This document shows, in pieces, positions 23,080-24,899 of a stretch of 64,000 nt of DNA. Source of the DNA: an uncultured Alphaproteobacteria bacterium (GTDB taxonomy: Bacteria; Pseudomonadota; Alphaproteobacteria; RF32; CAG-239); NCBI GenBank assembly GCA_944391715.1, contig CALXUP010000004.1, forward strand, positions 1 to 64,000. Direction: 5' to 3'. The notes under the pieces are model-generated. The model was not told where the DNA came from and searched no databases. It saw only the letters and a program-made list of their open reading frames with translations. A program made the position numbers and the translations under genes. Each line of letters begins with the position of its first letter. The stretch's first letter is position 1.

Positions 23080-23532
23080 TTAATATTCTATTTTATCTTT
23101 TTTATTTTTCCATTTCTGCATAACGGCTTTAGCCTCCGGCAGATCCATTCTGACCAGTTTAACCGGATCATCTTCATAAAACACACGATCGCGAAATCCG
23201 ATATCCTCGGCATCATAACGATCGGCGGCATAATAAATTTCGGCAATATTTGCCCATTTGCAGGCATTCAGACACATAGGGCAGGGTTCGCAGGAGGTAT
23301 AAAGGATACAGCCGCTCAAGTCAAAACTTCCCAAATTTTTGCACGCATCTCTGATGGCCATCACCTCTCCGTGTGCTGTCGGATCATTGTCCAAAACCAC
23401 GCGATTATGCCCCTGACCGACAATTTTCCCCTCCTGATTAACAATAACGCAGCCAAACGGAGAGCTTCCGACATCCACCGAACTGTCACTAAGTTCAATC
23501 GCCCTGAGTAAATTCTCTTTATGATTTATCAT
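23080..23532 (-). CDS. Nucleoside deaminase, guanine-deaminase-like
   Basis: Zn-dependent cytidine-deaminase-fold enzyme. The HAE-type motif is HGEV (DPTAHGEVMAIR), and the second motif is CEPCPMCL, giving His and two Cys Zn ligands plus the catalytic Glu. The terminal region (YYAADRYDAEDIGFRDR) resembles the Bacillus GuaD group, which converts guanine to xanthine. tRNA adenosine deaminase TadA is a related alternative but usually has a different C-terminus. The gene is monocistronic; ribosome site AAAGAGGAAAG. Confidence 0.88.
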   Translation of the reverse strand: MINHKENLLRAIELSDSSVDVGSSPFGCVIVNQEGKIVGQGHNRVVLDNDPTAHGEVMAIRDACKNLGSFDLSGCILYTSCEPCPMCLNACKWANIAEIYYAADRYDAEDIGFRDRVFYEDDPVKLVRMDLPEAKAVMQKWKNKKDKIEY

Positions 23533-23577: not shown

Positions 23578-23606
23578 TTGACTAAAGACTTAAAATATTA
23601 TATAAG
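23578..23606 (+). promoter_or_regulatory. Strong sigma-70-type promoter
   Basis: TTGACT (23578-23583), exactly 17 bases, TATAAG (23601-23606). The predicted transcript begins near 23613 and carries GTTAACTCATTATTAATTC, the ATTATTAAY element also found before the orphan genes at 12127, 21419 and 35747. A 17-codon frame starts at 23639 and may be a leader peptide. Confidence 0.7.
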
Positions 23607-23612
23607 CTATCT

Positions 23613-23990
23613 GTTAACTCATTATTAATTCTACTACTATGCACAAAGAAAAACCGCAAAAAATTGAAAATTTTCATAAAAAAATAGTTTGAGCATCAAC
23701 AAAACTGCTGTGAAGCAGATTTGTCGAAACAGAAGTGCAGAATTTTATTTAATGTTCATAAAAATGTAAGTTTATGTTATTTTGTTTTCTGCAGACAACT
23801 TCTGACATTTCTATTTATAAAGAAGCTCGCTCGAGAGAGTAGGCTTCTTCATTTAAACAAGATAAAAGACTGAAAAAAATATTTTTTGGGGTGTGTTAGA
23901 CCAACGACAATATATACAAGTCTTACCTTGTCCTCTTGGTTTAACGTGATAACGTCTGCTTTCAAAAAAAAGCAGGCGTTTTCGCTTTTT
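23613..23990 (+). ncRNA. Candidate structured RNA or regulatory leader
   Basis: A promoter at 23578 and a Rho-independent terminator (AACGTCTGCTT with AAGCAGGCGTT, 23951 to about 23980, then T-rich) bound a region with no convincing protein gene. It contains several stems: CTGCT-GTGA-AGCAG; CAGAAG and GCAGAA pairing with TTCTGC and CTTCTG further on; AAGAAGC with GCTTCTT; and GTTAGACCAA with TTGGTTTAAC, enclosing GACAA with TTGTC. It lacks the conserved cores of RNase P RNA, tmRNA and SRP RNA. It is either a free small RNA of about 370 nt or a transcription-attenuating leader of the HD-domain gene, which begins 55 bases after the terminator. Confidence 0.5.
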
Positions 23991-24014
23991 AAACAGTTAT
24001 TAAACAAATTATGC

Positions 24015-24040
24015 TTTCCTTTTAACGTCAACAAAGGAAA
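24015..24040 (+). promoter_or_regulatory. Hairpin covering the ribosome site of the HD gene
   Basis: TTTCCTTT (24015-24022) and AAAGGAAA (24033-24040) form a perfect 8-bp stem with a 10-base loop. The right arm contains the AAAGGA ribosome site of the HD-domain gene. Confidence 0.5.
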
Positions 24041-24044
24041 AAGA

Positions 24045-24899
24045 ATGATAAAAAGATACAAAGACGAAGCCTTCTTGCGCAAATATTATGAAGACTGTCG
24101 CAAATATGTTGCCGGCTCTCAAGAACTGTGCTTTTATGCCGACGAAAAATTCCGCCATTCCATGCAGGTTGTCGGCGCAGGAAACTATTTATTAAAACAT
24201 GAAAAAACTTTTCAAAATTGGACCGAACAGGAAAAATACCTTGCCTGGCTGGGTTGTCTTTTTCATGATGTCGGCCGTTTCAGAGAAATCTGCAAACGCT
24301 ATGAAAACAAAGATCTGCACGGAGCAAACCTGCGCAAATACGACCACGGCGAATTCAGCTATGAAATATTGCAAACTTCCTCGCAATACCTCAACCCTTT
24401 GCTGCTTTTTCCCATCCGGCACCACGGACATCTGGACGCAGATTTTTTCGGAGAGGCCGGATATCTCGCTGCATCGCAAAAAGATAAAGAAACAATGAAA
24501 AACATTTTCTTTTTGATAAAAGATGCCGATAAAATAGCCAATTTTTATCTTTTTCGCCGTCATCCGGAATACTACGGTTCCTTAATTTGCGGAACTGAGA
24601 AAATGAGGTCGGCGGCCAGTCCGAAAGTTGTTGAAAGCCTGTCCCGCCAAGAACTTTGCCGCAATGCAGACATCGCCACGCCGCTTGATCAGATGCTCCG
24701 GATTTTGAGCTGGGTCTTTGACATTAAATTTAAACAATCCTTTGTTTTTCTAAAAAAACTCGGATGTATTGAAGATATGCTTCTCCGCATCCGGGAAAAT
24801 AATATTGATAATAAAACACAGGAAAAGATTGAAAAAGTTATCAAAAACTTTATAACTGAATCTATAAACGAAACTAACATCAGAGGAAATTCACTATGA
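24045..24899 (+). CDS. HD-domain phosphohydrolase
   Basis: A 284-aa cytosolic protein with an HD metal site: CLFHDVGRFRE (HD), HHGHLDADFF, and LIKDADKIANFYLFRR (distal Asp). HD proteins hydrolyse nucleotides or phosphodiesters; the substrate is not evident. The start at 24045 has AAAGGA upstream; an upstream in-frame ATG at 23886 would run through the terminator hairpin and is not used. The 3' end overlaps the AsmA-like gene by four bases. Expression seems to be controlled by the structured leader and the hairpin over the ribosome site. Confidence 0.85.
   Translation: MIKRYKDEAFLRKYYEDCRKYVAGSQELCFYADEKFRHSMQVVGAGNYLLKHEKTFQNWTEQEKYLAWLGCLFHDVGRFREICKRYENKDLHGANLRKYDHGEFSYEILQTSSQYLNPLLLFPIRHHGHLDADFFGEAGYLAASQKDKETMKNIFFLIKDADKIANFYLFRRHPEYYGSLICGTEKMRSAASPKVVESLSRQELCRNADIATPLDQMLRILSWVFDIKFKQSFVFLKKLGCIEDMLLRIRENNIDNKTQEKIEKVIKNFITESINETNIRGNSL

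Follow-up and report, generated by a model that had tools for sequence, protein, structure and literature searches.

The stretch of DNA analysed here (64,000 nucleotides, called the window below) is part of G000, a 1.55-Mb draft genome of an uncultured alphaproteobacterium, and one of its intergenic regions very probably encodes a folded RNA of about 380 bases, with start and stop signals of its own, that belongs to no known family. To its left, on the minus strand, lies a gene for a cytidine/deoxycytidylate-type deaminase (23080–23532; Pfam PF00383, E 1.2e-25), the divergent neighbour; to its right, on the plus strand, lies the gene for an HD-domain protein of 284 aa (24045–24896), recognised as such in a first-pass annotation and matched by Pfam PF01966 (E 1.7e-5). 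The structured non-coding RNA spans 23612–23990 on the plus strand, about 379 nt, with its start inferred from the -10 element. Its promoter (23578–23606, plus strand), which the annotation had called excellent, consists of TTGACT (23578–23583), a spacer of 17 bases and TATAAG (23601–23606), and is kept in three relatives as TTGACT or TTGACA followed by TATAAG or TATAAA; a consensus promoter scan missed it because that scan requires the -10 element to end in T. The Rho-independent terminator noted at the other end was also found by a terminator scan of the window: a stem of 12 pairs (23951–23980) runs into a T-rich tail (the whole at 23951–23990, plus strand), and the stem is common to four species. 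Between promoter and terminator, about 380 bases hold no credible gene and, as had been noted, several stems, here resolved into five helical domains. Judged by sequence, the RNA has both a promoter and a terminator of its own.

Full-length DNA matches to the locus came from only three of the 105 genomes searched, all from the same genus: G001 (83%), G006 (74%) and G005 (71%). Gene order is the same in all four species: deaminase (minus strand), RNA (plus), HD gene (plus) and an AsmA/DUF748-like gene (plus), with a tRNA-Lys gene (minus) upstream wherever the retrieved stretch extends that far. BLAST and HMM searches with the window RNA gave nothing significant outside this four-species clade. 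A separate observation concerns the HD protein, which shares 34–36% identity with its counterparts in G002 and G004, where the syntenic neighbours share 59–75%; this divergence within the genus may reflect unusually fast evolution or replacement of the gene.

The plus strand of 23611–23992 folds at -95.7 kcal/mol (z -5.0), a value reached by none of 100 dinucleotide shuffles, and the minus strand of the same stretch has a z of -3.1. A consensus fold was then computed on a four-species MAFFT alignment built without structure information, with column shuffles that preserve gap pattern and conservation class as the null: it reached -51.7 kcal/mol, where the shuffles averaged -13.0 (sd 3.6; z -10.8), and z was still -9.9 when the terminator was left out. 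The structure conservation index of this alignment is 0.55 (null maximum 0.29), and RNAalifold finds seven pairs in it that changed on both sides.

A second structure was obtained by manually fitting all four sequences to a single fold comprising P1–P5 and the terminator. A 5′ segment of about 41 nt is followed by P1, a long-range helix that encloses P2, P3 and P4, and then by P5 and the terminator. All helices are on the plus strand. P1 pairs 23653–23664 with 23881–23892 (41 of 48 pair cells canonical across the four species). P2 (23688–23728) is a hairpin with a GNRA loop (GUGA or GAGA), 51 of 56 cells canonical and double changes at four pairs; P3 (23730–23804) is a long hairpin with a conserved apical GUUCAUAA...GUUUAUGUUA, 68 of 76 cells canonical and double changes at three pairs; P4 (23820–23849; AAGAAGCU.../...GGCUUCUU) again has a GNRA loop, with 47 of 48 cells canonical and double changes at two pairs; and in the P5 hairpin (23895–23945; GUUAGACC...GGUUUAAC) all 52 cells are canonical, with double changes at three pairs. 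Altogether the fitted structure has 82 pairs, with 305 of 328 cells canonical (93%), and 13 pairs changed on both sides, distributed over ten helix segments in P1, P2, P3, P4 and P5. Examples are a C-G pair in P5 that is U-A in G005, an A-U pair in P4 that is G-C in G005, another P4 pair that goes from G-C to A-U in G006, and, in the outer part of P2, A-U replaced by C-G. Compensatory changes among relatives, which the first-pass annotation had proposed looking for, are present in nearly every helix by this count of 13 and at seven pairs by the MAFFT count. An alignment fitted by hand is biased towards its own structure, so more weight goes to the shuffle test, which used the unfitted alignment. 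A covariance model of P4–P5 (R3) matched strongly in the four species only; its weaker matches at the corresponding locus of other genera were no better than genome-wide noise.

The RNA does not correspond to a known family. None of the 4227 Rfam families reaches its gathering score at the locus, and permissive thresholds gave sub-threshold matches that are scattered, weak and chance-like. RNase P, alpha-tmRNA and 6S RNA were considered and rejected: each scores over its cut-off elsewhere in G000 and also in the three relatives, and none does so here, which agrees with the earlier remark that the locus lacks the cores of RNase P and tmRNA. A short frame within P5 that resembles a tmRNA tag (xNDN...) was likewise dropped because the frame is lost in G006. 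Phage and plasmid records contained no match to the RNA, so a mobile origin is not supported.

Two CtrA-type boxes of the form TTAA-N7-TTAA bear on how the locus may be controlled. The first (TTAA-CTCATTA-TTAA, 23614–23628) lies over the RNA start, and all four species have it; the second (TTAA-ACAGTTA-TTAA, 23989–24003) lies past the terminator, about 56 bases before the HD start, and is followed by a weak -10 element, TATGCT (24010–24015). The motif occurs six times in the window, two of them at the RNA locus, and is present in 0.9% of 100-base pieces drawn at random from the window. Right after the first box come 13 bases (23629–23641, TTCTACTACTATG) that are near-invariant in the four species and unpaired in the RNA model; neither box, frame nor stem accounts for their invariance. 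On the minus strand a candidate deaminase -10, TATAAT (23597–23602), overlaps the -10 of the RNA within ATTATATAA, which is invariant in the four species. Relative to the transcript predicted from this TATAAT (23602–23597), the 5′ base of the first box falls at about -38. In Caulobacter, full CtrA sites whose 5′ base lies near -35 are reported to bring about activation, and a CtrA site over the start region to bring about repression (PMC4287350; PMC11264516). The predicted box at 23614–23628 would thus be placed to activate the divergent deaminase gene.

The second box recurs well beyond the clade: TTAA-N7-TTAA stands at -51 to -67 in 18 of 24 HD loci of relatives, including loci of genus g8 that have no RNA. 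Because the box is found at RNA-less loci too, the HD gene is likely to have a promoter of its own past the terminator, and the HD family looks like a conserved, if so far predicted, CtrA target. CtrA orthologues (68–69% over 224 aa) were found in four of six genomes tested (G001, G005, G013 and G043). In the window's own genome and in G006 the query gave only paralogues at 34–36%, perhaps because both are incomplete drafts. The full-length matches at 69% show the Caulobacter CtrA query to be fit for purpose.

Taken together, these data fit an autonomous RNA gene better than an attenuator. The first-pass annotation had left the choice between a new small RNA and a riboswitch or attenuator acting on both transcription and translation. 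The former is well supported by synteny, compensatory changes, promoter, terminator and the lack of an Rfam family, and the latter is not well supported. The most serious competing explanation is nevertheless of this kind: the RNA would form the 5′ UTR of the HD/AsmA-like operon, with the terminator as an attenuator opened by a ligand, a protein or stress. Position speaks for it, as the RNA lies immediately upstream of, and co-directional with, the HD gene, the AsmA-like gene or both in each of the 16 loci measured. Where a genome lacks the RNA, moreover, the AsmA-like gene has a clear promoter (TTGCCA, 16 bases, a TAAAAT-like element) 71–98 bases from the end of tRNA-Lys, and in genomes with it the RNA's TTGACA lies 89–97 bases from tRNA-Lys; these distances would be consistent with the RNA having emerged between a pre-existing promoter and the gene behind it. 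Hardly any promoter was detected by a consensus scan of the stretch from terminator to gene, but this failure says little because HD genes without an RNA fail the scan too, and the CtrA-type box between terminator and HD gene, common to RNA-less relatives, speaks for a separate start of the operon.

Several parts expected of a regulatory leader are not conserved. Scans for leader and antiterminator pairings in the four species gave no shared pairing; the best partners of either terminator arm differ in place among the species, so no shared antiterminator was seen and no conserved pair of mutually exclusive structures such as an attenuator or riboswitch would have. The hairpin said to hide the HD ribosome site (CUUUCCUUU/AAAGGAAAG) does form in the window and in G001 and is absent in G006 and G005; a translational regulator would be expected to keep a hairpin over the Shine-Dalgarno sequence, and two of the four species have it. 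The 17-codon frame at 23639, suggested as a leader peptide, exists and has its ATG within a conserved stretch, but it has no Shine-Dalgarno sequence, and its length and sequence differ in relatives, which argues against attenuation by a leader peptide. We consider a cis-acting leader fairly unlikely.

Less probable again is that one transcript serves both roles, with termination releasing a stable RNA of about 380 nt while a small share of unregulated readthrough feeds the HD operon. A strong promoter and an intrinsic terminator in tandem with the operon would allow this, but the HD gene's own CtrA-type box past the terminator speaks against it. Finally, we regard it as highly improbable that the conservation merely reflects control at the DNA level (divergent promoters and CtrA sites) with a folded RNA that has no function of its own: the most conserved stretches, 23578–23641 and 23951–24017, do coincide with the promoters, CtrA-type boxes and terminator, but the compensatory changes extend across P1–P5, outside those elements.

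We thus hold, with moderate confidence, that 23612–23990 is an autonomous structured non-coding RNA gene, probably trans-acting, with CtrA-linked transcription. A sigma-70-type promoter of its own would transcribe the RNA and its own intrinsic terminator would end it, after which the RNA may work in trans by base-pairing or by binding a protein. CtrA bound at 23614–23628 would activate the divergent deaminase gene while covering the RNA start site; as CtrA would then cover that start, we propose that the RNA is produced at times of little active CtrA. Control of the HD/AsmA-like operon would be separate, through its own CtrA box past the terminator.

Folded stretches occupy the same locus in other genera (g2, g8, g9, g10 and g16) and in two less closely related species of the same genus as the window. 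They have a TTGAC[A/T] promoter, a length of 211–407 nt, fold z from -2.2 to -9.4, GNRA hairpins and a terminator, and they occur with or without an HD gene; in many other genomes of the family no RNA separates tRNA-Lys from the nearby AsmA-like gene. In g2, g9, g10 and g16 the 5′ part has an unpaired UUAUUCCGUUUAUU inside a helix. This type of motif, invariant and placed in the 5′ strand of a helix that covaries, marks strongly folded RNAs that lie beside tRNA-Lys and before the AsmA-like gene, at loci L093, L098, L099, L101, L117, L144 and L145 (g9), L088 (g10), L094, L095, L097 and L146 (g16) and L092 (g2). Rfam gave no match on L088, L092, L093, L095, L097, L098, L101 and L117. A covariance model of this 5′ hallmark from the other genera (R1) matched eleven family genomes strongly, always at this locus, and did not match the window; none of 385 genomes from the class matched at E 0.001, a negative that strict filters weaken, and no viral contig carried the 5′ motif.

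Comparison between the sequences of the window clade and those of the other genera is not significant, so the RNAs are positional equivalents whose homology is unproven. A GCTTTTTAAA trailer after the terminator appeared common to RNAs of several genera, but in the clade and in some g8 loci it lies within the CtrA-type box and is therefore weak evidence of homology. Tentatively, and with the balance of probability on the other side, the RNAs at this place in g1, g2, g8, g9, g10, g16 and the window clade could be one fast-evolving, family-wide RNA gene that keeps its position, promoter, GNRA hairpins and terminator although its sequence has diverged past recognition, with transcription in the window clade opposed to CtrA activity. 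If true, the cell-cycle circuit of these uncultured alphaproteobacteria with small genomes would have an RNA among its outputs.

Two further observations were made at related loci. At L094, L095 and L089 the tRNA-Lys 3′ end and terminator are directly repeated around some 190–300 bases before the AsmA-like gene, and these repeated tRNA-Lys ends resemble leftover attachment sites of an integrated element. A gene-free stretch adjoining tRNA-Pro at L026 (G003:C217, near position 836 on the minus strand) ends in a terminator with the window RNA's TTTCGCTTTTTAAA trailer, possibly another small RNA gene.

The locus adds a well-supported, undescribed structured RNA to poorly studied small-genome alphaproteobacteria. 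It also illustrates how RNAs of this kind evade sequence searches: similarity is gone within one genus while a folded RNA is still in place. Like RNase P, tmRNA and 6S RNA, it is a multi-helix RNA in the range of 150–400 nt, but all of these are found elsewhere in the genome. With attenuators and terminator-type riboswitches it shares a promoter, a folded leader and an intrinsic terminator before a co-directional operon; it differs from them in having no conserved antiterminator, an unconserved hairpin and a downstream gene with its own CtrA-type element. The nearest parallels are CcnA of Caulobacter (PMC8959179) and EcpR1 of Sinorhizobium (PMC4414408), likewise alphaproteobacterial non-coding RNA genes linked to the cell cycle; the window RNA has no Rfam match, and no sequence link to either was seen. 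The CcnA gene lies at the replication origin and is presumably activated by CtrA (PMC8959179). For the window RNA, by contrast, it is the RNA's own start that lies under the CtrA-type box, which predicts repression, and the box faces a divergent gene; this overlap makes a question directly testable: does CtrA turn the divergent gene on and the structured RNA off?
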